Program-made: the position numbers and the translations under genes
From: Oscillatoriales cyanobacterium PMM_0008
GTDB taxonomy: Bacteria > Cyanobacteriota > Cyanobacteriia > Cyanobacteriales > Aerosakkonemataceae
Direction of reading: 5' to 3'
DNA length: 35,690 nt
Assembly: GCA_949128025.1 (NCBI GenBank)
Contig: CASBRD010000116.1
Coordinates: 1 to 35,690, forward strand
In this document: in pieces, positions 12,015 to 34,926 of the stretch
How positions within the stretch are numbered: the stretch's first letter is position 1
Layout: the number at the start of each line of letters is the position of its first letter
Notes under the pieces: generated by a model
Told to the model about the DNA's origin: nothing
Databases searched by the model: none
What the model saw: only the letters and a program-made list of their open reading frames with translations

Positions 12015-12023
12015 TGGTATAAT
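12015..12023 (+). promoter_or_regulatory. Extended -10 promoter of the methyltransferase-nuclease gene
   Basis: TGG followed by TATAAT is a perfect extended -10 element. TTGAAA words upstream are too close or too far for a standard -35, as expected for TGn-type promoters. Transcription would begin near 12030, about 70 nt before the preferred GTG start at 12100. Confidence 0.5.
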
Positions 12024-12099
12024 CTGTGAAAGTCTGCGTTCAAGATATTGATAAAAGTCGTTACTCTATCTCTTTGGATTGTCACAGGAAAGCGAAATC

Positions 12100-14745
12100 G
12101 TGCAAAGTGTTTCTAAGTTTGATATTACAAGCAAAATTAGCCGTCAGCCCTACTACAGGACGCAGCTAGGTTCAGCCTACTTAGGTAATAGCTTGGAACT
12201 GATGGCAGAATTGCCCAATGAAAGTGTCGATTTGATTTTCACTTCCCCACCTTTTGCCCTAGTAAGAAAGAAAGAGTATGGCAATGTAGATGCCCATAAA
12301 TACGTCGAATGGTTCAAGGCATTTGCTAGTGAATTCTATCGTATTATCAAGCCCGAAGGATCGCTAGTCATAGATATTGGAGGAACTTGGATTAAAGGTT
12401 TTCCCGTGCGATCGCTTTATCATTTTGAGTTAGTAATAGAGCTTTGCAAACCAAAATCAGAAGGTGGTTTGGGTTTCTTCCTCGCCCAAGAGCTTTTTTG
12501 GTACAATCCAGCCAAACTTCCTACGCCTGCTGAGTGGGTGACGGTGCGGAGAGAGCGAGTAAAAGATGCTGTAAATACAATTTGGTGGTTATCAAAAGAT
12601 CCGCACCCTAAAGCCAATAACAAACGGGTTTTACGCCCTTACAGTGAGGCGATGAAAAACCTATTGAAAAATGGTTATGATGCAAAACTACGCCCGTCTG
12701 GGCATGATATTTCTACTAAATTTCAGAACGATCGGGGTGGTGCTATTCCTCCAAACATCATAGCCGATCCTACGTGCAGTTCCGGCGCGTTCATTGGGCA
12801 GCCAGTATTAGGAGAATTTAATTGGATTTTAGAGCATGATTTAGCACAGCCTGTCAATGTGATTTCCGCTTCTAATACTGCATCTAATGATTACTATCAG
12901 CGACGATGCAAAGAAGCAGAAATTAAACCTCATCCTGCTAGATTTCCCCAAGCATTACCTGAATTTGTCATCGCACTTTGTACTGAACCTGGTGATTTAG
13001 TTCTCGATCCATTTGCAGGTTCAAATACTACAGGACGAGTAGCGGAAACCCTCGATCGCCGTTGGTTAGCTTTTGAATTAGATCAAAATTATATTAAAGC
13101 ATCGCAGTTTCGATTTGAAGAAGATGCTCCATTGGTTGTTACTCCATTAAAAGAGAGAAAAGTTCTGAAAGCCAAAGCGCTGGCTTTAGCCCCTGATTAT
13201 ATTGACAAATCATCTACAATAGACGATCAAAATAGTTATATCCAATTAGACTTATTTCAATCACATAATAACAATATGGCAGATCAAAAACTAAAGTTTA
13301 CTTACGGGCATCAGTTTGAACCTAAAACGATGAATTTACCGGAACTGGTGCAACTCTGTGTAGATTGCCAGCCCGATCGCCGTATCCTACAGGTTGAAAT
13401 TGCCAAGCGTTATTATTCTAGTCACTCAACGCAAAATGATTTACAGCAAGGAGAAAATCGCAGCAAACTTGCAATGAATACATTTCTTTCTCTTCGTGCT
13501 TACAAGTTAGTTGAGTCGATTAATGATGATTGGCAGTACAAAGTAACAGATCTTGCTAATGAAATATTAGCTTATCAGAGCGATGCTGATGAAGCTGCTA
13601 CGATTTTTGCCCGTCACATCCTCACTAATTTAACTGGAATGTCTTTGCTGAAAGCAGTGGAAGCAATCAACAGTAGAGGCGATAAACCCAAATTAGATTT
13701 AATTGGTTACGAATTGCAAGAAATGGGGTATTCTCTCTCTCCTAATGCTATCTATGTTAGCACTATGCGGCAATGGTTACAAGAAGCAGGGGTATTTGAG
13801 AAAACATACGAAATTAATTGGGATCGAGTCTATGACATCCTAGAACTTGATAAAGACTATATTGATGAGATTTACACTCTTACCTCAGAGCAAAAGTATT
13901 TTCTATTGGCAATGCTCCAGATGAGCATTATAGAGCTAACCAAGTGGAATGACATTGCTAACTATGCGGTGAGTGTTTATAAAGTACGCTTCCCCTCAAA
14001 GTCATTTGTTAAGGATATTATTCAACCTTTAGTAGAAGTAGGTTTAATTGAAACTGAGAAAACTACGGGTGGACGTGGTGCTAAACCTAATCTTGTTAAG
14101 CTGACTGAAAAAGCACAGCGTGAATTACTGTTTAAATTGTTAGAGTCTATTGCAGACATGACAGAAATATCCCAAACTGAGCTAAATCGAAGTTTTGAAG
14201 ATGTTGTCAATGATTTAGATCATTCCGATAAACATATTAAAGGCAAAGCACTAGAATTGTTAGCAATTTGGATGATTCGTTTGACGAGTCTTCGATTCAC
14301 AAAATGGCGCAAACGGGACTATGAAACTGGACAAGGTGAAGTAGATGTTTTAGCTGCATCGGATCGCTTTGTTTATCACCGTTGGCAAATTCAGTGCAAA
14401 AACACCAAACGAGTAGATGTTGAGGTGTTAGCCAAAGAAATAGGGATGACTTTTGTAACTGGCGCTGATGTGGTGATGATTGTGACTACTGGTGAGTTTA
14501 CTAGAGATGCTTTCCAGTACGCTTATCGCATGATGGAAGTATCCCGTTATTATATGGTGCTGATTCAAAAAGAGGATATTGAGGCTATTAAAGAAGATAG
14601 AACTAATATTATCAAGATTCTCGATCGCCGCGCAAGGCGTGTATTTGCTAAGAAGGAATTAGGATTAACTGATAATGCAGTTGATGAGATGGAAATTGAA
14701 GAGGATTCACTGACAGAGTTTGATGGAGCATTTGAAGAGGAATAG
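12100..14745 (+). CDS. Single-chain DNA methyltransferase-winged helix-Mrr-type nuclease fusion
   Basis: 881 residues from GTG 12100, which has AGGAA nine bases upstream; TTG 12079 is the alternative. Residues 1-350 are an N4-cytosine/N6-adenine MTase in beta order: motif IV TSPPF at 48-52, then motif I DPFAGSNTTG at 303-312. TSPPF favours N4-cytosine. A second motif-I-like stretch, DPTCSSGAF, begins at Asp223 in a segment of about 35 residues that I believe is extra to the family. About 400-700 look like winged-helix modules, for example EVGLIETEKTTGGRGAKPNL. The C-terminus is a PD-(D/E)xK Mrr-type nuclease: Glu719 in GKALE, GEVD with Asp749, and QCK with Gln765 and Lys767. It is probably a self-contained type II-like system that modifies and cuts DNA. 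Known type IIG fusions usually put the nuclease first; here it is last. A DNA repair or nucleolytic sensor role is the alternative. Confidence 0.85.
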   Translation: MQSVSKFDITSKISRQPYYRTQLGSAYLGNSLELMAELPNESVDLIFTSPPFALVRKKEYGNVDAHKYVEWFKAFASEFYRIIKPEGSLVIDIGGTWIKGFPVRSLYHFELVIELCKPKSEGGLGFFLAQELFWYNPAKLPTPAEWVTVRRERVKDAVNTIWWLSKDPHPKANNKRVLRPYSEAMKNLLKNGYDAKLRPSGHDISTKFQNDRGGAIPPNIIADPTCSSGAFIGQPVLGEFNWILEHDLAQPVNVISASNTASNDYYQRRCKEAEIKPHPARFPQALPEFVIALCTEPGDLVLDPFAGSNTTGRVAETLDRRWLAFELDQNYIKASQFRFEEDAPLVVTPLKERKVLKAKALALAPDYIDKSSTIDDQNSYIQLDLFQSHNNNMADQKLKFTYGHQFEPKTMNLPELVQLCVDCQPDRRILQVEIAKRYYSSHSTQNDLQQGENRSKLAMNTFLSLRAYKLVESINDDWQYKVTDLANEILAYQSDADEAATIFARHILTNLTGMSLLKAVEAINSRGDKPKLDLIGYELQEMGYSLSPNAIYVSTMRQWLQEAGVFEKTYEINWDRVYDILELDKDYIDEIYTLTSEQKYFLLAMLQMSIIELTKWNDIANYAVSVYKVRFPSKSFVKDIIQPLVEVGLIETEKTTGGRGAKPNLVKLTEKAQRELLFKLLESIADMTEISQTELNRSFEDVVNDLDHSDKHIKGKALELLAIWMIRLTSLRFTKWRKRDYETGQGEVDVLAASDRFVYHRWQIQCKNTKRVDVEVLAKEIGMTFVTGADVVMIVTTGEFTRDAFQYAYRMMEVSRYYMVLIQKEDIEAIKEDRTNIIKILDRRARRVFAKKELGLTDNAVDEMEIEEDSLTEFDGAFEEE

Positions 14746-14840: not shown

Positions 14841-15284
14841 CACCTCAGCCAACAGCCAGAAGAAGCCGATGTAATTCACGATTTGTTAGCCTATATAGCA
14901 GAACAAATGCTCGAACTCAACAAACAAAAGCAAGCCGAAATAAAAAGCTTTTTGCAATGGCTAGAGCGCTTTATCGGTTGTCCCGTTGACAGCCTTACCA
15001 ATAAATCGAAAATTCAGAATTATTTAGGAGACTATTCCAAAGACGAACCCCATATCAGCTTTGATGAGTTAATCGAAGTGCTGAAGAAAAACAAAAATAA
15101 ACTCAAAATCGATCCCGTTGCGCGAAAAGAACAGCAAACCTTAGAAAAAGAATATCAAGCAAGTTTAGATACTTTACTCCCGCTCAAAATGCAACTGATG
15201 CGGTGCGATCAACTGATAGATAAGATTGTTTATAAACTCTATGGATTGACAGAGGAAGAAATTGCTATTGTAGAAGGGAGATGA
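14841..15284 (+). pseudogene. C-terminal remnant of an Eco57I-type restriction-modification protein
   Basis: About 147 codons are open from 14841 to the stop at 15284, without a credible start; an ORF from TTG 14883 gives 133 residues. The sequence (HDLLAYIAEQMLELNKQKQAEIKSF, IQNYLGDYSKDEP, the ending LIDKIVYKLYGLTEEEIAIVEG) matches my memory of the extreme C-terminus of cyanobacterial Eco57I/type IIG methylase-nucleases, where it follows target recognition. The MTase, nuclease and most recognition parts are absent, so this is a decayed tail. Related fragments recur at 15810-15863 and perhaps 16707-16769. It lies 95 nt after the methyltransferase-nuclease fusion but is not part of it. Confidence 0.7.
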
Positions 15285-15919: not shown

Positions 15920-16090
15920 ATGAAAGCAATCAAAGTAATGGCAACCATTGATGAAGAAGGAAAACTGGCTTTAGATAAGCCTTTGACGATAGATAAAAAT
16001 CTGCGCGTTGAGGTAATTGTTCTGATTCCTGAAACAGCAGATATCGATCGAGATGAAGATGAGCCAAAAACCGCCATTAAGGAATTTTAG
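15920..16090 (+). CDS. Truncated RelN-family antitoxin-like small protein
   Basis: 56 residues, preceded by a good Shine-Dalgarno (AGGAG, spacing about 5). The start MKAIKVMATIDEEGKLALDKP and the block VEVIVLIPE match the antitoxin family called RelN in cyanobacteria. Normal members continue 25-30 residues further with a helical toxin-binding end; here a TAG stops it after AIKEF. Removing one T from the TTTT before the stop would fuse the frame to the next gene's antitoxin through NMQV. No RelE toxin follows. It is probably a broken antitoxin whose partner was replaced by the neighbouring MazF module, but it may still be translated. Confidence 0.6.
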   Translation: MKAIKVMATIDEEGKLALDKPLTIDKNLRVEVIVLIPETADIDRDEDEPKTAIKEF

Positions 16091-16100
16091 GAGTAGCAAT

Positions 16101-16337
16101 ATGCAAGTAACCAAAGAAAACCTCAAACAAGAAATCGATCAATTTAACGACGATCAACTCAAGCAAGTTGCCGAATTTATCAAATTTATCAAATTTCGCA
16201 GTCGATTCAATCAAAAAGTAGTTGATTTACATCAATTTGCCAGCCTCTATCAAGAATTTGCCCAGGAAGACAGAGAACTTGCAGAAGTTGGAATAGCAGA
16301 CTACATCGAGCAACTACAAAAAGAGGATCGAGCATGA
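16101..16337 (+). CDS. Antitoxin of the MazF module
   Basis: 78 residues from ATG 16101, which has AGGAG 7 nt upstream (the upstream TAG of the RelN-like gene is inside it). It is mostly helical: MQVTKENLKQEIDQFNDDQLKQVAEFIKFIKF followed by an acidic second helix. This resembles DUF2281-like antitoxins. Its stop overlaps the MazF start by 4 nt (ATGA). It would bind and neutralise the downstream ribonuclease and probably autoregulate the operon. Confidence 0.78.
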   Translation: MQVTKENLKQEIDQFNDDQLKQVAEFIKFIKFRSRFNQKVVDLHQFASLYQEFAQEDRELAEVGIADYIEQLQKEDRA

Positions 16338-16684
16338 TTATTAAGCGTGGGGAAGTGTGGCTAGCAACCCTTGACCCAGTTCAGGGTTCCGAACAGGCTG
16401 GCACTCGTCCCGTAATTATTTTTCAAGAAAATACCCTATCCAAATTTACCACAACCGTCATCACAATTCCTGTCAGCAGCAATTTGCGCCGTGCCGAGCT
16501 TCCTACTTGTATTCAAATATCTAGTGGTGAAGGAGGATTGAATCAAGACTCTGTTGCCCTCTGCCATCAAATTCGTGTTCTTGATAAAACTCGACTTACC
16601 AAAAAATTAGGACAACTGGAACCGGAAACTATTGAACTGTTAGAAACAACTGTATTATTTACCATTGGTTACTCAATGCCATAA
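16334..16684 (+). CDS. MazF/PemK-family endoribonuclease toxin
   Basis: 116 residues, full length. MazF toxins cut mRNA at short sequences. Family motifs: RGEVWLATLDPVQGSEQAGTRPVII at the N-terminus with the catalytic arginine in TRP, TVITIPVSS in the middle, and LCHQIRVLDKTRL with the conserved Gln/Arg/Asp surface. It is the second gene of a coupled pair. Nothing suggests truncation, so the module is likely active. Confidence 0.92.
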   Translation: MIIKRGEVWLATLDPVQGSEQAGTRPVIIFQENTLSKFTTTVITIPVSSNLRRAELPTCIQISSGEGGLNQDSVALCHQIRVLDKTRLTKKLGQLEPETIELLETTVLFTIGYSMP

Positions 16685-16815: not shown

Positions 16816-17424
16816 ATGATTATGCAAGCAGAAGAAAAAAAATATTACTCTCCAGAAGAGTATCTAGAACTAGAAGTCAATGCAGAAGAAAAACATGAAT
16901 ACATTGATGGAGAAATAATCCTTATGTCCGGTGGAATGCCCAATCATAACCGAATTATCCTTAACTTCGGTGCATCTCTAAACTTTGCTCTTAAACGGCA
17001 ACCTTACGATGTATTTGTCAGCGATCAGCGATTGTGGATTCCCCAACGACGTACCTATACTTACCCTGATATCATGGTAGTTCAAGGAGCTTTGCAACTC
17101 CAAGAAGGACGAAAAGATACTATTACCAATCCAGTGATGATTGCCGAAATATTATCAAAATCAACTCAGGCTTATGATTCTCCTTCGGAGACGCTATGCG
17201 AACAAGGCGAAAAATTTAAGTTTTACCGCACTATTCCCACTTTTCAAGAGTATGTAACGATCGAACAATACTCAATGCACGTTGAGCGATACTACAAAAC
17301 AGAACCGCATCAATGGATTTTTTCTGAGTATGATGGTGCGGAATCAATCCTATCCCTTAACACAGTTCCATGTGAAATTTCTCTGGCAGATCTCTATGAT
17401 AAAGTTGATTTTGAAGCAGAGTAA
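16816..17424 (+). CDS. Uma2-family (DUF820) putative endonuclease
   Basis: 202 residues. Uma2 proteins have a PD-(D/E)xK nuclease fold and are greatly expanded in cyanobacteria; their biological role is unknown. Visible are YSPEEYLELE and EKHEYIDGEIILMSGG near the N-terminus, the putative active-site Asp85 in YTYPDIMVV and Glu111 in MIAEILS, and GEKFKFYR. Residues 122-130 (SPSETLCEQ) are an in-frame insertion of a dispersed repeat between AYD and GEKF. The start could also be the ATG two codons on; GAGG lies about ten bases before the first ATG. It stands alone after the toxin-antitoxin strip. Confidence 0.88.
   Translation: MIMQAEEKKYYSPEEYLELEVNAEEKHEYIDGEIILMSGGMPNHNRIILNFGASLNFALKRQPYDVFVSDQRLWIPQRRTYTYPDIMVVQGALQLQEGRKDTITNPVMIAEILSKSTQAYDSPSETLCEQGEKFKFYRTIPTFQEYVTIEQYSMHVERYYKTEPHQWIFSEYDGAESILSLNTVPCEISLADLYDKVDFEAE
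17179..17205 (+). repeat. TCCTTCGGAGACGC-type dispersed repeat inside the Uma2 gene
   Basis: 27 nt containing TCTCCTTCGGAGACGCTATG, encoding SPSETLCEQ. Words of this type (CCTACGGAGACGCTACGC and variants) are a well-known abundant repeat in Nostoc and relatives. The rest of the Uma2 sequence joins seamlessly without it. Confidence 0.65.
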
Positions 17425-17443
17425 AAATGAGGGAAATTATCAC

Positions 17444-17499
17444 GTATGTTGTTGCGCTTTAGCGCTATCTTAAAGAGCGCTGAAGCGCAACAACGTACC
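17444..17499. repeat. Dispersed palindromic repeat, copy 3
   Basis: Inverted arms of about 24 nt around a short centre, with GTTGTTGCGCTTTAGCGCT on the left and GCGCTGAAGCGCAACAAC on the right. It lies between the convergent ends of two Uma2 genes (20 and 5 nt away), a placement suited to a bidirectional transcript end. Confidence 0.85.
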
Positions 17500-17503
17500 A
17501 AAA

Positions 17504-18187
17504 TTAATTTAAAGAATTTGGATCTATCCCTAATTCTCGTAACTTTTCCGCCAATCTTTCCGCTTTTTGTTCCGCTTGCAAAATCCGTTCTTCAGGCGTT
17601 AGCAATCTTGACCCTCGATCGTCATACCAATAAAGCCATTCCCGCGTTATTCCCTGATAAGTTCCCCGTTCTCTACCAATTCCTAAACCAATTTCAGGTA
17701 GCCAAATCGGATTATCTTGCGGCTGCAAATTATATTCCCCATTCACCAAACGATATACTTCTAATGGTGATTTTCGACGGCGAATGGGATTATATACTAC
17801 ATAATACAATACTTCCAATTCTGCATAAAGGTTTTTCTTGTTGGTGTATTCTCCCCGCCGTTTCTCGGAAACAATTTCTAGCACCATGATTGGGGGAATA
17901 TGATCTTCTTCCCAAAAGATATAACTTCGACGCAAGTTTTCATCAAAAACCCGTTCTACTCCTAAGCTAAGAAATCCATCTGGCACTATAGCAGGTTCTT
18001 CGGGGTCGTAATATACTCCCATATCAACACCAAAAAACCAATCCATGCGGTTCGCCCAAACTAAAGCTAAGATTGCTTTGAGTAAACCGGGAATTAAATC
18101 TTGCAGTTCGTTATCCACAGGTGTATCGTCAGAGTCGGGTAGTTCTTCGGAAGAGGGTAAGTAATGCAGTGGGTTGTACTTTAACAT
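17504..18187 (-). CDS. Uma2-family (DUF820) putative endonuclease
   Basis: 227 residues of the longer Uma2 type. N-terminal LPSSEELPDSDDTPVDNELQDLIPG, putative catalytic Asp70 in IVPDGFLSLG and Glu104 in MVLEIVSE, and a C-terminal charged coiled tail (EERILQAEQKAERLAEKLRELGI) that is typical of these proteins. It converges on the other Uma2 gene with the palindromic repeat between them, and lies 78 nt downstream of plsY in the same direction. The cellular role is unknown. Confidence 0.88.
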   Translation of the reverse strand: MLKYNPLHYLPSSEELPDSDDTPVDNELQDLIPGLLKAILALVWANRMDWFFGVDMGVYYDPEEPAIVPDGFLSLGVERVFDENLRRSYIFWEEDHIPPIMVLEIVSEKRRGEYTNKKNLYAELEVLYYVVYNPIRRRKSPLEVYRLVNGEYNLQPQDNPIWLPEIGLGIGRERGTYQGITREWLYWYDDRGSRLLTPEERILQAEQKAERLAEKLRELGIDPNSLN

Positions 18188-28009: not shown

Positions 28010-30964
28010 CTAATGACCTATCAAATCGAACACTGCGTTTACTAACGTATCGTCCTGGAAGCTGGCTTTTGTTAAGTAATAATTTGCTCCAGCTTCCAAC
28101 CCGCGTAGGCGGTCTTCTTCGCGGTCTTTGTAGGAGACAATAATCACTGGGATTTTATTCAGTTTGGGATGATTTTTAATCTTGCTGGTAAACTCAATTC
28201 CGTTCATACGGGGCATATCAACATCACTAACTACCAAATCGTAGTGATTTGTGGAAACGGCGTGCCAACCTTCCATTCCATCAACTGCGACATCAACCTT
28301 GTAACCTTTGTTTTGGAGCAATTTTCGTTCCATTTCGCGCACGGTAATGGAATCATCCACTACCAGAATACTCTTGCGGCTGTCTGTCACAACCCGATCG
28401 GCATTGCTAACAACACGATTCAACATATGGCTGCCATTAAGCAGATTATCGACAGAACGCATCAAGTCAGAAGCATCGACAATCAGGATCGGGGAACCGT
28501 CTCCCATTAAAGCAGCAGCACTAATATCCTGAACTTTCCCCAGTCTTGGTTCTAACGGTCTGACCACCAAATCGTGTTCGCCCAAAAAGCGATCGACCAC
28601 CAGTCCGTAATAGTCTGATTGTTCGCTGATCACGACAACAGATAAGGTGTCGGACTTCGGCGGGGGTTGCTTCAACTCCAATACTTGATAAGCGGCTACT
28701 AAGCCGATATTCTTATTGTCCATAGTGAAATATTGCCGGTTTTCCACTGAGGAAATATCCTTTTTATCCACGTTGACAATTTGCTCAATCCGCGCTAGGG
28801 GAAAGGCATAAGGTTCGCCGGATATTTCTACTAAGAGGGTGCGAACAACGGAGAGCGTCAAAGGCAACTGGAAGTTAAAAGTCATGCCTTTTCCCGGCTG
28901 AGAACTGGCTCGCACGTTGCCGCCAACATCGTGCGCCATGCTTTTAGCAATATCCAATCCAACACCGCGACCGGAAATTTCGGTGACTTGCTTGGCTGTG
29001 GAAAATCCAGGCAAAAACAGAAATTCCATCAGTTCGCTTTCGTTAAGCTGAGCTGCTATTTCCGGAGTTGCCAGACTCTTATCAATAATTTTTTGACGTA
29101 GGCGCTCTGGGTCGATTCCTCTACCATCGTCAGTGATGGTAATCGATAGCATTCCGCCGCGATGGACGGCTTCGAGCCGCACGGTTCCTTCTGCTGGTTT
29201 GCCTGCGGCTAGGCGCTCTTCGGGAAGCTCCATACCGTGATCGATCGCATTCCGCAAAATGTGGGTGAGGGGAGCTTCCAGTTTTTTGATGATATCGCGA
29301 TCGACTGGCGTGGCTTTGCCGAGAATATCAAATCTAACTTGTTTGTTCAGCTTCCTGGCTAAATCGCGCAGCATCCGGGGAAATCCCTGCACGCCATCGG
29401 CGAAGGGACGCATATTAGATGCGATTACTTCCCGGTAGAGGCGATCGCTTAAGGAGCCGGTGCGACGGGCATATAATTCTAGTTCGATCAGGCGATCGCT
29501 CAAAATCTGCCGACATTCCCGCTCCTTGGCGCGAGCGGCTTCTAAATAAGTGTCGCTATCTTGATTGTGGTGGACTGCCAGAGTTTGCTGAAAATTCTCT
29601 AAAATTTTCGATAATTCCAGTTGGCGTTTCTTGAGGATCGTCAGGGAATCGGCAAAGGGCTGAAGCCAATTTGCCTCGATCAGAGATTCCCCTGCCAAAC
29701 CCATGATGCGATTTAAGTTTTCGGCTGAAACCCGTACAACGCGATCGCTATTCGCCGCATCTTCTGCGGGTTGCTTGGCTTTCTCCACATTACCAGATGT
29801 TTGCCTAGCGATCGATTTGGTGTCCTTCCCCCCAGTTGGTTGTGTTTGGATGCCAGCAGACGCAGCAACAACCATTTCTTGCTTTTGCCCCGAAGCAGAT
29901 TGTGCCTGAGTTTCCTGCTGTGAGGGGGCCCTTTTAACTGGGGCCGATCCCGGTGTCAGCAGCGCAGAAATTTCCTCTCTAGTATTTTCAACATCTTCCC
30001 GATTTTGCTTAACCCAACTTTGCCCGTGCTGACTGATGTTTAACAGCAAATCGACTCCATGCAGCAGCACGTCAACCCCATCTGCCTCCAGGGTAATCTT
30101 TTGGTTCTGCGCTGCTACAAAGGCGTCCTCCATCACGTGAGCCAAATTAACAGCAGCATCAAGCGCCACGATGCGGGCAGCCCCTTTAATGGAATGGGCC
30201 GCTCGCATTAAAGATTCCAGTACTTTAGGAGAACCCGGTTGACTTTCTAGCGCTAACAGTCCCTCGTTTAAGACGGTTGCTTGGGCGTCTACTTCCATCT
30301 GGAATAACTCCAACATTGAAGTGTCGCCGATGCTTGACATCTCGTCTGCTTCTGGAGAAGATTCACTGTCTGCGATCGCGGTTGTTTGTGAATGACTGGG
30401 CGTTTCTTGATTATAAACGGGGGTAACATCTATAGCAGGCAGGTTTGGGACAATTTTTGTCTGTTTCCTGTTGAAATCATCTTCTAAACTTACCTCTACA
30501 GTTGGTAGCTCCGGCTTTGCAGATTTGCTTTTTGCCTCTACCCTTCGCTTAGAAACTGATGCCGTACCCAGCGTCAGCAGGTTAGCAATACTGTCTGTAA
30601 TAGTTTCGATCTCATCTTGATTTTCTGATAGCCAATCCTCTAAATTTTCTTCCTTTACCCGGCTAATATTTAACAGTAAATCGACCCCTTGCAGCAGCAA
30701 TTCAATCTGACCGCCACTCAGGGTAATGCTTTGCTTTTGGGCGTTATCAAGGCCACTCTCTATGCCCTGAGCCAGGTTAATAGCCGCATCGATTTCGACC
30801 AGCCTAGCGGTTCCTTGGATCGCATTAGCAACGCGCATCAAGGACTCCAGCATTTGGCGAGTCTGGGGTTCGCTTTCCAAGGATAATAGCCCCTGGTTTA
30901 ATATGGCTGCTTGGGCTTCCACTTCCTGCCGGAACACATCTAGCATCGTGAAGTCGCTCATCAT
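28010..30964 (-). CDS. CheA-type hybrid histidine kinase with two HPt domains and a receiver
   Basis: 984 residues. Order: HPt-like domain 1 (about 1-110), HPt domain 2 (about 215-330), a linker, a dimerisation/ATPase core with the N box around Asn572 (LRNAIDHGME), DDGRGIDPERL and GRGVGLDIAKSM, a CheW-like domain (about 720-850) and a C-terminal receiver with Asp914 in VVSDVDMP. HPt2 keeps the phosphorylatable His257 in AAHSIKGAAR. HPt1 has Asn47 at the same place (VANAIQGTAR) and cannot be phosphorylated in the normal way. The kinase is recruited to MCP arrays by CheW. GGAGG lies two bases before the first ATG and five before a second, in-frame ATG. It lies 17 nt after cheW. Confidence 0.93.
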   Translation of the reverse strand: MMSDFTMLDVFRQEVEAQAAILNQGLLSLESEPQTRQMLESLMRVANAIQGTARLVEIDAAINLAQGIESGLDNAQKQSITLSGGQIELLLQGVDLLLNISRVKEENLEDWLSENQDEIETITDSIANLLTLGTASVSKRRVEAKSKSAKPELPTVEVSLEDDFNRKQTKIVPNLPAIDVTPVYNQETPSHSQTTAIADSESSPEADEMSSIGDTSMLELFQMEVDAQATVLNEGLLALESQPGSPKVLESLMRAAHSIKGAARIVALDAAVNLAHVMEDAFVAAQNQKITLEADGVDVLLHGVDLLLNISQHGQSWVKQNREDVENTREEISALLTPGSAPVKRAPSQQETQAQSASGQKQEMVVAASAGIQTQPTGGKDTKSIARQTSGNVEKAKQPAEDAANSDRVVRVSAENLNRIMGLAGESLIEANWLQPFADSLTILKKRQLELSKILENFQQTLAVHHNQDSDTYLEAARAKERECRQILSDRLIELELYARRTGSLSDRLYREVIASNMRPFADGVQGFPRMLRDLARKLNKQVRFDILGKATPVDRDIIKKLEAPLTHILRNAIDHGMELPEERLAAGKPAEGTVRLEAVHRGGMLSITITDDGRGIDPERLRQKIIDKSLATPEIAAQLNESELMEFLFLPGFSTAKQVTEISGRGVGLDIAKSMAHDVGGNVRASSQPGKGMTFNFQLPLTLSVVRTLLVEISGEPYAFPLARIEQIVNVDKKDISSVENRQYFTMDNKNIGLVAAYQVLELKQPPPKSDTLSVVVISEQSDYYGLVVDRFLGEHDLVVRPLEPRLGKVQDISAAALMGDGSPILIVDASDLMRSVDNLLNGSHMLNRVVSNADRVVTDSRKSILVVDDSITVREMERKLLQNKGYKVDVAVDGMEGWHAVSTNHYDLVVSDVDMPRMNGIEFTSKIKNHPKLNKIPVIIVSYKDREEDRLRGLEAGANYYLTKASFQDDTLVNAVFDLIGH

Positions 30965-30981
30965 ATCCTCCCTCTTATTTG

Positions 30982-31671
30982 TTATAAAATTCTTTTGTTT
31001 AAAGTGGAAAACAATAAATCCGAATCTAGGTAATTAACCTTATGCCCCTGCCAGCGAATCACCCCTTTTGTATAAGCTTCTGTGGATTTTGAAATCACGA
31101 CAGGTGTATTTTGTAATTCCCTTAGTGGGAAGCGATGAATACCGCAAACTTCATCAACAATAAAAACCCAATGATTTTCTTGGCTTCCCACAACTATCAT
31201 CCGTTTAGCAGCAACAGAAATGACACGATCTGAAGAGTTAGCTTTATCTTCCAGGTCAAGCAGATGGGTGAGGGAAACGCACATGAGAATTTCTCCTCTA
31301 ATGTTGACCAACCCCATAAACAGTTCGCTGTTGCGGTGGGGTAAAGTATGAATTATACAGGGATCTGTCACTTCCTGAAGTAACCCTACTGGCACAGCTA
31401 ACCATTCGCCGCCCAGCATAAATATCATAACTGATACGGTTTCTACAGAAGGAACAATGGCCCCGTTAACTTGTGCTTTAGAACTAAGGGGCTGAGTTTT
31501 TGCTAGGATCTCAGTCCACTCGTTGACATACTCTGGTGGTGCTTCCCTTTCTAATAAACTGCGTCCGGCGGCAGAATAAACGGGGCAGTTACGACAGTGA
31601 ATCACTGTTTTGAGTTGTTCGCAGGACCGATCGCCCTCAACGCCTATTTTATTCCAGCAATCGTTACTCAT
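30982..31671 (-). CDS. cheW: CheW-type coupling protein with N-terminal cysteine motif
   Basis: 229 residues, longer than a plain CheW. The C-terminal 140 residues are the CheW domain (VMIFMLGGEWLAVPVGLLQEV, HTLPHRNSELFMGLVNIRGEILMCVSL, VIVDEVCGIHRFPL-like region). The first 45 residues contain four cysteines, C5, C17, C26 and C29, spaced C-x11-C-x8-C-x2-C in CW...SCEQL...HCRNCP; this may bind a metal or an iron-sulphur cluster. CheW links MCPs to the CheA-type kinase. AGGAGGGTT directly before the ATG is a strong Shine-Dalgarno. It lies between MCP and kinase genes with short gaps. Confidence 0.94.
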   Translation of the reverse strand: MSNDCWNKIGVEGDRSCEQLKTVIHCRNCPVYSAAGRSLLEREAPPEYVNEWTEILAKTQPLSSKAQVNGAIVPSVETVSVMIFMLGGEWLAVPVGLLQEVTDPCIIHTLPHRNSELFMGLVNIRGEILMCVSLTHLLDLEDKANSSDRVISVAAKRMIVVGSQENHWVFIVDEVCGIHRFPLRELQNTPVVISKSTEAYTKGVIRWQGHKVNYLDSDLLFSTLNKRIL

Positions 31672-31710
31672 AACCCTCCTGACAACCTAGTTTACTGTAA
31701 ACAATCACCT

Positions 31711-33309
31711 CTAAGCGGCTTGAAAACCAGAAATTTGCTGGCGTAAGCCTTGCGCCGCCTCGTTCAACTGGCGAATAGCACCGTTAATCTCACGCAAAGA
31801 CTGGGCAGTTTGCGATGAAGCTTCACTTAGCTGCACCATTGCCTCACTGATTTGCTCGGCTCCCTCTGCCTGTCCTTCCATACTGCCACTCACCTGTTTA
31901 AAGCGGGGTGTTAAGGTTTGCACTTGCCCAATAATTGACTCTAATTTTGTGCCGATATTACGGACATTTTCCACACTCATTTCTACGTCTTTCGTGAACT
32001 TATCCATTTCCATCACTCCTGTGGAAACTGCGCCTTGCATCTCTTTGACCATATTTTCGATGTCCAAGGTCGCAACTGCTGTTTGATCCGCTAGACGGCG
32101 AATTTCTCTTGCAACTACAGCAAAACCCGTGCCGTACTCCCCGGCTTTTTCGGCTTCAATCGCCGCGTTGAGTGAAAGTAAGTTGGTTTGATCTGCTACT
32201 TTGGTGATGGTGGTGACAATGCTGTTAATGCTGTTGGCTTTATCGCTAATCGTTCCCAGTTTTGACGATATCGTATTAGTTGAAGATGCCAATTTCTGCA
32301 TGGTTTTTTCCATCTGCAACAAGTCTTTTTGACTTTCACCCGCTGCCTGTGCAGTTACTTGGGAAATCCGCTCGACTTCATCTATTGTTTTTAGTAGGTT
32401 CTTGGAATTAGCCGCAATTTCTTTCGCTGTAGCGGCTACCTGATTCGTAGAGGCAACCTGTTCTGTCATTGTTGCCTCCAGTTGTTTGCCAGAGGCAGCA
32501 ATTTGGGTGGTAGAAGTGGTAATTTGAATGCCAGATTGCTGCACCTCGGTGGCGAGTGGTTTGGCGATCGTATTATTAAAATACCAACCCAATAATGCAG
32601 CGATTATCGGCCCAGCAATCACACCTATAACTATCGAGAATGTGCTGAGAGCAACATCTAGACTGGCTGCTTTGCGAACATTGTTTGCCACGTTTTCATT
32701 GTATAATATGAGTTTTTGCAGTGCGCCTGTTGATGATACAAATGTGTCATGTAATGTCGTCGCTGCGTAATCATTCATTTTGTCGATTACCCCAACCGCA
32801 CCCTCTGCGGCTGTATACTCAGGTGTATTAGTTTTTCCCTGCTTCACCAGAGCAATTAGAACTTGTCTGGCGTTAATGACGCCATAGGTCAAAAATTCTT
32901 CGTGAAGCTTGACAAATTTATTATGAGCTGCTATCCATTTTTCTCCTTCAGGCACAACTTTTTTATAAAGGTTATCTTCTTCTGGATCGCGAGGAATTTT
33001 TGCGTAGTCGTTAAAGGCTGCACTTATCTCTTTCATAGCAGTCTCCATTTCTGCTATATTTTTCTGCCTTTGCTCCGCAGTTAAGGCTGTAACCATCAAC
33101 AAGTTTTCTGATGATTGAACTCTAGATTGTGCTTCGTTGACTTTCCACAGATTAACCATGCTGGGAAAAGCCTTCTCGCTGACTATTGTAAGGTCATGGC
33201 TCAGCCGCGAAGTTGCAAACCAGCCGATTAACCCCACTATTAATACAAGTAAACCAACCAGCATAAATGAGCTGATTATTCGCGTTTGCAATGACATATT
33301 TTTAAACAT
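31711..33309 (-). CDS. Methyl-accepting chemotaxis protein with 4HB-type sensor
   Basis: 532 residues. TM1 about 12-32, a helical sensor domain at 35-205 (four-helix-bundle type, with SKRLSHDLTIVSEKAFPSMV-like start), TM2 about 218-244 and a long cytoplasmic coil. The signalling tip around 385-410 contains [21 protein letters not shown] do not see a separate HAMP domain after TM2. The terminal 150 residues are almost identical in DNA to the other MCPs here. GGGGGA about six bases before the ATG supports the start; a second ATG is four codons on. It precedes cheW by 39 nt. Confidence 0.93.
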   Translation of the reverse strand: MFKNMSLQTRIISSFMLVGLLVLIVGLIGWFATSRLSHDLTIVSEKAFPSMVNLWKVNEAQSRVQSSENLLMVTALTAEQRQKNIAEMETAMKEISAAFNDYAKIPRDPEEDNLYKKVVPEGEKWIAAHNKFVKLHEEFLTYGVINARQVLIALVKQGKTNTPEYTAAEGAVGVIDKMNDYAATTLHDTFVSSTGALQKLILYNENVANNVRKAASLDVALSTFSIVIGVIAGPIIAALLGWYFNNTIAKPLATEVQQSGIQITTSTTQIAASGKQLEATMTEQVASTNQVAATAKEIAANSKNLLKTIDEVERISQVTAQAAGESQKDLLQMEKTMQKLASSTNTISSKLGTISDKANSINSIVTTITKVADQTNLLSLNAAIEAEKAGEYGTGFAVVAREIRRLADQTAVATLDIENMVKEMQGAVSTGVMEMDKFTKDVEMSVENVRNIGTKLESIIGQVQTLTPRFKQVSGSMEGQAEGAEQISEAMVQLSEASSQTAQSLREINGAIRQLNEAAQGLRQQISGFQAA

Positions 33310-33429
33310 CAGTTCCCCCTAGTTTGTAATAGTTTATTCGCTGATATTTTGCCCAATTAGGTGCGAAGCAAAATTGATATAAGTAATCTTTAATCCCCTA
33401 ACGAGCTAAAGTCAATGCGAATTTTGGAA

Positions 33430-34926
33430 TCAATTATTTCCCACTTTAAAACGAGATATTTCCTGGCGTAAACCTTGTCCAGCTTCGTTTAATTCCCTAA
33501 TAGAACTGTTAATCTCACGCAAAGACTGGGCCGTTTGCGATGAAGCTTCACTTAATTGTACCATTGCCTCGCTAATTTGCTGTGCCCCTTCTGACTGTCC
33601 TTCCATGCTGCTACTCACTTGTTGAAAGCTGGGGGTGAGAATTTGCACTTTCTCGATAATCGACTCTAATTTACTGCCGATATTACGAACATCATCCACA
33701 CCCCGTTCTACATCTTTGGTAAATTTATCCATTTCCATCACCCCTGTGGAAACTGCGCCTTGCATCTCTTTTACCATAGTTTCGATGTCCAAGGTCGCAA
33801 CTGCTGTCTGGTCAGCTAAGCGGCGAATTTCACGGGCAACTACAGCAAAACCCGTGCCGTACTCCCCGGCTTTTTCGGCTTCAATCGCCGCGTTGAGTGA
33901 GAGTAAATTGGTTTGATCTGCTACTTTGGTGATCGTGGTAACAATACTATTAATACTGTTAGCTTTTTCACTAATAGTTCCCAGTTTTGATGAGATGGTA
34001 TTAGTTGCACCTGCCAACATCCGCATAGTTTGTTCCATGTGGTTCAGGTCTTTTTGACTCTCATCAGCGGCTTGGGCCGTTGTTTCCGACTTATGCTTAA
34101 CTTCATCCATTGTCTTTACCAATTGTGCCGAGGTGACAACAATCGCCTTGGCTGTCGCAGCTACCTGATTGGTCGAAGCAACTTGTTCGGTCATCGTTGC
34201 TTCGAGTTGCTTGCCTGATGAGGCGATTTGGGTGGCAGAGGTGGTGATTTGAATCCCGGATTTCTGTACCTGACCCATTAAAGCATTCAGATTTTCAGTC
34301 ATTATGCGAACAATTAAAAATGAAATGAATGAGCCAATCCCTATGACAAGTAGGGTACTCCCCCAAGCAAACTTAGTAGAAAAGTTCCTAGCTTCAATTG
34401 CGGTATTATTCCGAGCGACTAGGAGTTTATCCTCCGCTTGATTCATTTCTTCAATTTTTGTCCTGAGTTCGGCCATAATCCGCTGCCCCGCCCCTGAAAC
34501 TACTCTCTCTTTTGTCTCGTCGAATTTTTCTGCTTTTTGCATAGAAATAGTTTCTGCTAAGTAAATTTTTCTGCGTTGAACTACTTCTTGAAGTTTCGCT
34601 AGTCTTTGTTTTTGGTCTGGGTCTTTGATAAGATTTGTTAATTTTGAGAAGTCATCGTCAAGCTTTGTTAATGAATCATTGTATGGTTCTAAAAAGCTTT
34701 CTTTATTTGTGTACAAAAAACCCCGTTGACCTGTTTCGGCCTGTACTAAATGTTTTTCTAACATTTGTAGTTGTAATTGAACTTTATAGGTTGAAATTAC
34801 CCCATTAATGGATTGACTTGAAGTTTCATAGCCTCGCTCATTAACAACATTGGTAATTATAACCAATGCAAAAACTATCCCGAAACCCATCCACAAAAAT
34901 TGAGAAACACTTATACGTTTTAACAT
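33430..34926 (-). CDS. Methyl-accepting chemotaxis protein with CHASE3-type sensor
   Basis: 498 residues. TM1 about 10-29, then a periplasmic helical domain whose [31 protein letters not shown] stretch is typical of CHASE3, TM2 about 186-207, and a cytoplasmic domain starting [39 protein letters not shown]. The signalling tip [15 protein letters not shown] and the C-terminus [11 protein letters not shown] are shared with the neighbours. No clear HAMP. It ends 120 nt before the next MCP. Confidence 0.93.

Follow-up and report, generated by a model that had tools for sequence, protein, structure and literature searches.

A natural fusion of adjacent methyltransferase and nuclease genes in a cyanobacterium: a probable single-gene restriction-modification enzyme with a candidate sliding-clamp motif in its linker

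Bifunctional type IIC restriction enzymes are already known, and one with its methyltransferase (MTase) first has been described: BtgZI, which, according to the account in a review of type II enzymes, unites in one polypeptide an MTase at the N-terminus and, at the C-terminus, a PD-D/EXK variant in which Q replaces E (PMC4081073). Adjacent type II genes have also been joined by engineering into the bifunctional polypeptide RM.Eco29kI, whose authors remarked that unidentified natural fusion derivatives could exist (PMC3039593). In this study, we analyzed a 35,690-nt stretch of DNA (hereafter, the window) from Oscillatoriales cyanobacterium PMM_0008 (GenBank assembly GCA_949128025.1, contig CASBRD010000116.1, positions 1 to 35,690), in which a gene at 12100-14745 encodes an M.PvuII-like MTase followed by a winged-helix nuclease. 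On the evidence of its sequence relatives, this gene is a natural fusion of separate, adjacent MTase (M) and nuclease (R) genes, and its product is quite probably a single-gene restriction-modification (RM) enzyme of the type IIC kind that arose from a two-gene M-R operon and probably serves in defense against viruses. The nuclease-last order, which a preliminary description of the window had presented as unusual, was itself confirmed, but the M-first BtgZI provides a precedent for it.

The open reading frame (ORF) was found to be open on the plus strand from TTG 12079 to 14745, corresponding to 888 aa. Since GTG 12100 was invariant in 7/7 aligned relatives and was preceded by AGGAAAG about 10 nt upstream in six of the seven, it appeared to be the likelier start. 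A Pfam search, whose coordinates use the 888-aa (TTG) numbering, assigned residues 50-343 to N6_N4_Mtase (E 3e-41) and residues 748-820 to Mrr_cat (E 5e-9), with no Pfam domain between them. The profile search proposed in the preliminary description thus bore out its reading of an MTase first and a nuclease last in one ORF, and the four motifs that it named (TSPPF, DPFAGSNTTG, GEVD, and QCK) were all located in the ORF. The gene and the features of its MTase half are as follows.

12100..14745, plus strand: fused MTase-nuclease gene, 881 aa from the GTG start, with existing full-length homologs
12139..13125, plus strand: M.PvuII-like beta-class DNA MTase domain, approximately residues 14-342 (PDB 1boo, Pfam N6_N4_Mtase, and PADLOC matches)
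12241..12255, plus strand: motif IV TSPPF (catalytic), invariant in 14/14 MTase rows
12766..12855, plus strand: MTase insertion of about 30 residues, in 8/14 rows and absent from the other 6 and from M.PvuII
13006..13035, plus strand: motif I DPFAGSNTTG (S-adenosylmethionine binding), from the MTase alignment of 14 rows

A sequence search of the PDB matched the MTase half to M.PvuII (1boo) with an E value of 2e-98 in two stretches (14-221 and 253-342), and PADLOC gave an MTase_II match (E 2e-116). The order of the motifs, TSPPF before DPFAGS, was that of the beta-class and the same as in M.PvuII, which was 46% identical over residues 1-339. The two differed in the 30-residue insertion, which M.PvuII lacks; the eight rows carrying it were those of fused, split cyanobacterial, and stand-alone (L002) MTases. 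They also differed in their nucleases: that of plasmid pPvu1 is encoded by a small separate coding sequence (545-1018) beside a helix-turn-helix regulator gene, whereas the nuclease here comprises about 490 aa with winged helices. The MTase half retained the entire M.PvuII body, and it is the nuclease gene to which the winged helices belong; this contradicts the earlier suggestion that they replace a classical target-recognition domain. On a Thiothrix plasmid, an MTase 53% identical overlaps an HNH endonuclease gene; considering this pair, the PvuII pair, and the fused protein together, one MTase family appears to serve different nucleases.

The nuclease half displayed the following features.

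13276..14190, plus strand: winged-helix region of the nuclease gene (AlphaFold2 model; matches to the BpuJI recognition domain, RosR, AbfR, and TubR)
14191..14742, plus strand: Mrr_cat PD-(D/E)xK nuclease domain with an acidic tail (Pfam Mrr_cat; matches to the R.BspD6I small subunit, AF1548, MspJI, and AspBHI)
14254..14256, plus strand: putative catalytic-helix Glu (ALELLA), kept in 11/11 rows and in 8/9 rows of a second alignment
14335..14346, plus strand: GEVD with the putative catalytic Asp, EVD in 11/11 rows and in 8/9 of the second alignment (Asp in 9/9)
14392..14400, plus strand: QCK with the putative catalytic Lys of the Q-x-K variant, in 11/11 rows and in 8/9 of the second alignment

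In the 11-row alignment, five rows of which were fused proteins, the helix Glu, E-V-D, and Q-C-K were unchanged at identities down to 30%; the second, separate alignment of nine rows included a relative from Haloplanus (L048). The structure prediction that had been suggested yielded a model of the nuclease half with a mean predicted local distance difference test score (pLDDT) of 80.9, consisting of winged helices and a PD-(D/E)xK core, namely the layout of FokI and BpuJI. The best PDB match in Foldseek was FokI (E 9e-7), with a TM-score of 0.27, so the domain arrangement differs from that of FokI. In VIA-align, the nuclease core superposed on the R.BspD6I small subunit (Z 10.2, 3.6 Å, 143 residues), AF1548 (Z 10.1, 2.3 Å, 104 residues), MspJI (Z 9.1), and AspBHI (Z 9.0), while residues 2-200 of the nuclease half superposed on the BpuJI recognition domain (Z 9.2, 4.2 Å, 172 residues) and residues of approximately 199-296 on winged-helix regulators (Z 8-9). 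These scores show fold and not function, and Z alone is not selective, because RPB5 chains reached Z 9.9 on the nuclease core; the RPB5 and acetyl-CoA carboxylase rows of the fold searches were set aside as shared folds without shared function. A sequence search of the PDB with the nuclease half matched no nuclease (best, BRR2, E 0.004), and besides Mrr_cat only weak matches were obtained in Pfam, PADLOC, and PHROG scans of this half.

A search with the nuclease half in 388 genomes of the host order identified 48 matching genomes, in 26 of which the fused ORF was complete (871-931 open codons), while four held a complete separate nuclease ORF; an overlapping draw of 386 genomes of the phylum contained 18 with a match. 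The MTase half was present in all 26 fused genomes, which are represented below by 27 fused rows (L025 and L008, on contigs of identical length, being duplicates). In each of the four split cyanobacterial loci, an MTase gene lay upstream on the same strand in the order M then R, with gaps of 20, 43, 44, and 47 bp. The R-then-M order was observed in a distant genome of the phylum (L040), on plasmids of Roseivivax (L047) and Haloplanus (L048), and in viral contigs (L050-L053). Altogether, 14 loci contained a complete stand-alone nuclease, and in 11 of them, two of which (L052 and L053) have identical alignment figures, an M.PvuII-like MTase gene was directly adjacent. The origin of the fused gene was a pair of separate M and R genes and not a nuclease-first type IIG protein.

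In the nuclease tree, constraining the fused rows to one clade gave the best tree found, 5.7 likelihood units over the free search (P value of the approximately unbiased test, 0.90), so that a single fusion would suffice, though unproved. Rows of one host family were spread over several branches, which points to horizontal transfer. No partner gene appears to travel with the fusion, because among 21 fused loci no neighboring ORF was common to more than two other loci. Neither a phage search with the nuclease half nor a viral-contig search with the full protein gave a match, while an alignment query detected seven separate-gene relatives in viral contigs; on these results, the idea that the fused protein came from phages or other viruses was rejected. 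On the Haloplanus plasmid, the nuclease relative (L048, 6004-7530) stands amid three M.PvuII-like MTase genes, next to a pglZ gene of a bacteriophage exclusion (BREX) system.

An MTase and a nuclease with complete active-site motifs were thus found in one polypeptide in 26 genomes, as expected of type IIC; the classical type IIG/IIC form, with an N-terminal nuclease and a gamma-class MTase, was rejected in view of the nuclease-last and beta-class motif orders. The earlier characterization of the product as a compact, little-described RM protein fits these results. In the mechanism that we propose, the MTase would place N4-methylcytosine on its site in the host DNA, the winged-helix region would guide the nuclease to the same site, and the nuclease would cut unmodified invading DNA, probably once two molecules pair. 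A review reasons that type IIC polypeptides are possibly restrained because the nuclease works as a dimer, unlike the monomeric MTase (PMC12707154).

The joint between the two enzymes contains three further features.

13126..13293, plus strand: low-conservation linker between the enzymes (column changes on the tree; low pLDDT in the full model)
13243..13257, plus strand: QLDLF, fitting the beta sliding-clamp binding consensus; QLxL(x)F in 27/27 fused rows
13276..13278, plus strand: ATG at the ancestral nuclease start codon, in alignment with the first Met of split nucleases; a possible internal translation start

According to a 2024 review, the beta-clamp binding consensus is Q-aliphatic-x-[L/M]-(x)-[F/L], and QLDLF was the strongest-binding peptide in several studies (PMC11139829). 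The linker in the window contains exactly QLDLF, and the fused linkers conform in sequence to this consensus, as would be expected of a candidate clamp client. On the tree of the 27 fused rows, the 48 linker columns underwent a mean of 6.2 changes each and the 42 non-motif columns a mean of 6.8, while only five columns were free of change, namely the three of Q, L, and L in QLxLF and those of the Met and a single Lys. QLxLF or QLxLxF was present in every fused linker, compared with 0.2% of shuffled linkers, and the strict QLxL(x)F occurred within the last 62 residues of 5/1216 ORFs (at least 200 aa) from 20 cyanobacteria. Among 11 MTases of split or decayed cyanobacterial loci, six ended in QLGLF at, or at most three residues from, the C-terminus, and four carried near variants (QLGFF, QGNLF, DLPLF, and ELPLF), leaving one (L080) with neither. 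DLPLF is reported as the replisome-recruiting motif of Caulobacter MutS (PMC8034640). Because the split- and decayed-locus MTases carry such sequences at their C-termini, the clamp motif is probably older than the fusion and was subsequently kept. The strict motif was not found in six MTases of R-then-M pairs or in 12 other stand-alone relatives.

The Met encoded at 13276 was likewise present in 27/27 fused rows, with no change on the tree as compared with 5-10 changes at each neighbor within four columns, and its use as a start is plausible. In the engineered Eco29kI fusion, a retained start Met of the second gene yielded a separate second protein instead of the fusion; this was mentioned by the authors as an unpublished observation, for which they suggested mRNA structure or an additional promoter as the cause (PMC3039593).

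From these observations we tentatively suggest, at somewhat short of even confidence, a fork-tethered RM enzyme whose linker hooks DnaN and couples self-marking to synthesis, with the internal start supplying extra free nuclease, so that one gene gives two proteins. QLDLF would bind the DnaN sliding clamp and keep the enzyme behind the replication fork; new DNA would then be methylated before the attached nuclease acts, as a second safeguard, and the kept internal ATG might still yield some free nuclease. All three steps are proposed with less confidence than the methylation, guidance, and cleavage steps above.

Several observations weigh against this proposal. The clamp motif is short, and a looser consensus was matched by 3.9% of shuffled linkers; Lys 357, which lies outside the motif, was also unchanged in the linker; one of the 12 stand-alone MTases (L015) has QLTLL, within the loose consensus; the full-length model was poor for the MTase and linker, so that exposure of the motif in the protein is only presumed; and no Shine-Dalgarno-like sequence was found at the internal ATG in the window. 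An ordinary type IIC fusion, with QLxLF and the Met as inherited structural remnants that serve neither clamp binding nor internal initiation, is a serious possibility that we nevertheless regard as the less expected one. Both elements do occur in split relatives, and the Met may be retained for packing. Inheritance of this kind is harder to reconcile with Q, L, L, and M having changed 0 times on a tree in which each neighboring linker column underwent 5-11 changes, and with the fused rows that depart from the pentamer carrying the hexamers QLSLPF or QLTLPF, which are still within the clamp consensus.

Two other proteins with such sequences were encountered. A C5 DNA methylase (PF00145; L125:17914-19086, minus strand) ends in EQLSLFPV, within the clamp consensus, and accounts for one of the five C-tail matches among the 1216 ORFs; the alignment covered this tail in 6/7 close homologs (68-83% identity), among them that of the genome from which the window comes. 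Clamp tails may be more widespread among cyanobacterial DNA methyltransferases. A TnpB/Cas12f-like protein (PF07282; L131:10730-11416, minus strand) has QLSLF near its C-terminus, and transposases are known clamp clients (PMC5371812).

The 18 matching genomes without a complete nuclease in the 388-genome draw comprised 15 remnants and three weak, distant matches (G446, G026, and G008; 21-26% identity, E 6e-4 to 9e-4, each match covering a short part of an ORF of roughly 500 codons), which were left out of the remnant count. In 8/15 remnants (L078-L082, L085, L086, and L089; the L080 alignment starts at residue 24), a near-complete MTase stood beside a broken nuclease, and 0/30 complete nucleases of the draw were without a complete MTase, even though the search was biased toward detecting an intact nuclease without MTase because the query was the nuclease. 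Such asymmetry, with the MTase outlasting the nuclease, is what is predicted for a toxic nuclease held by a protective MTase.

This pattern bears on the idea of a modification-dependent (type IV, Mrr-like) nuclease half traveling with an MTase of unrelated purpose, an idea that we consider improbable. EcoKMrr likewise combines a winged helix with Mrr_cat and Q-x-K (PMC12707154), some known winged-helix nucleases sense methyladenine (PMC11037411), and the catalytic domain superposed on MspJI and AspBHI; on the other side, the same MTase family was paired in 11/14 separate loci and 26/26 fused genomes, an MTase creating the substrate of the nuclease in the host would be expected to be lethal, and the MTase outlived the nuclease in 8/15 remnants. 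That the protein is mainly a regulatory or housekeeping methyltransferase with a vestigial nuclease is more improbable still, for although the MTase was kept after nuclease loss in the same remnants, stand-alone MTase relatives exist, and the Haloplanus nuclease relative is without most catalytic residues, the catalytic residues were intact in 11/11 nuclease rows, including five fused ones, and residues 691-881, the catalytic part, were at least as conserved as the MTase part among the fused proteins compared.

Returning to the RM enzyme of type IIC kind, we note the observations that count against it. The MTase was broken or undetected in 7/15 remnants (L075-L077, L083, L084, L087, and L088; L077 lies at a contig edge). 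The viral-contig nucleases L049 (partial MTase 1.1 kb away), L054 (none in the 11.3 kb covered), and L055 (at a contig end) have no adjacent MTase, and the first two are possible exceptions to the decay asymmetry, although outside the draw. The Haloplanus row has lost the helix Glu, E and V of EVD, and Q and K of QCK, which the other eight of the nine rows keep, and this relative may be inactive. Furthermore, in an avoidance test of 10 carriers and 10 non-carriers at 120 kb each, CAGCTG, the site suggested by M.PvuII, was no rarer in carriers (mean observed/expected ratio [O/E], 0.30 vs 0.23 in non-carriers) and ranked 63rd of 64 palindromes for carrier-specific depletion; its O/E was 0.86 in G001, the fused protein of which is 97% identical to that of the window. 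This negative test thus lent no support to CAGCTG as the recognition site; the 10 non-carriers included G025, which encodes a stand-alone MTase of 44% identity. CTGCAG was strongly under-represented in the 20 sampled cyanobacterial genomes, with mean O/E values of 0.08 in carriers and 0.16 in non-carriers.

A stand-alone MTase 73-75% identical to the fused one was present in 4/7 fused carriers (G000, L002 at C64:7418-8431; G001:C23; G002:C67; G006:C17) and, at an identity of at least 70%, in 0/53 other genomes of that search, a comparison confounded by three carriers being of one genus. It is possibly a back-up protective MTase; that of G000 (L002) has no clamp motif.

As for the surroundings of the gene, the preliminary description had credited it with its own strong extended -10 promoter. 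The sequence concerned, TGGTATAAT at 12015, is of a kind for which 1.5 chance matches were expected in the window and 2 were found; a sigma-70 scan gave no site at 12015, and among six aligned relatives it was intact only in two of the same genus. It was therefore rejected as a special feature, being at chance level. Directly downstream, a 133-aa ORF (14883-15284, plus strand) resembles type IIG restriction enzymes at their C-terminal end (PADLOC REase_MTase_IIG, E 1e-5; no Pfam match) and is likely a remnant of a second RM gene. Further downstream of the RM gene, 16053-16684 and 16816-18187 hold a PemK/MazF-type toxin gene preceded by a small ORF, together with two Uma2-family genes, and 28010-34926 (minus strand) holds a chemotaxis cluster with a CheA-type hybrid kinase and two methyl-accepting proteins.

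Among known nucleases, FokI, BpuJI, and BspD6I resemble the nuclease half in having a winged-helix-containing recognition region and a PD-(D/E)xK-type nuclease, with fold matches to their chains at VIA Z 8.4-10.2. These chains are without an MTase, and their whole-chain root-mean-square deviations of 16-21 Å indicate a different domain arrangement; the winged helix of FokI apparently makes no DNA contact (PMC11037411). EcoKMrr shares the layout noted above but acts on modified DNA, and no pairing with an MTase is described for it in the review concerned (PMC12707154). BtgZI, compared by description only, differs in its alpha-class MTase and in cutting at a distance from GCGATG (PMC4081073). 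HVO_A0006 of Haloferax, an N-terminal type IIG nuclease fragment (PMC4389544), was set aside. Among the literature matches listed, none combined a beta-class MTase with a winged-helix Mrr_cat nuclease fused behind it and a joint containing both a clamp motif and a preserved internal start, although such fused proteins may already be in REBASE as predictions.

A link between methylation and replication has been described for the plasmid replication-associated MTases M.BceJIII and M.EcoGIX, which differ in being single-strand-specific, with no clamp motif or nuclease reported in that account (PMC7736820). Its authors suggested the sliding clamp as a possible intermediary via Pol I for MTases of the M.EcoGIX type, which is the nearest earlier idea that we encountered; among the matches listed for literature combining the clamp with restriction or MTases, as titles and abstract openings, no clamp motif in a restriction MTase appeared. 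How a cell with an active restriction nuclease spares its own newly replicated DNA has long been asked, and a clamp motif that a restriction MTase carries in its tail or linker, if true, would be a direct answer, with marking physically tied to replication. Compared with RM.Eco29kI, in which the nuclease comes first and is of the GIY-YIG type (PMC3039593), the present family provides a natural succession of forms, with two genes, with one gene, and after nuclease loss, which the engineered fusion had only modeled.

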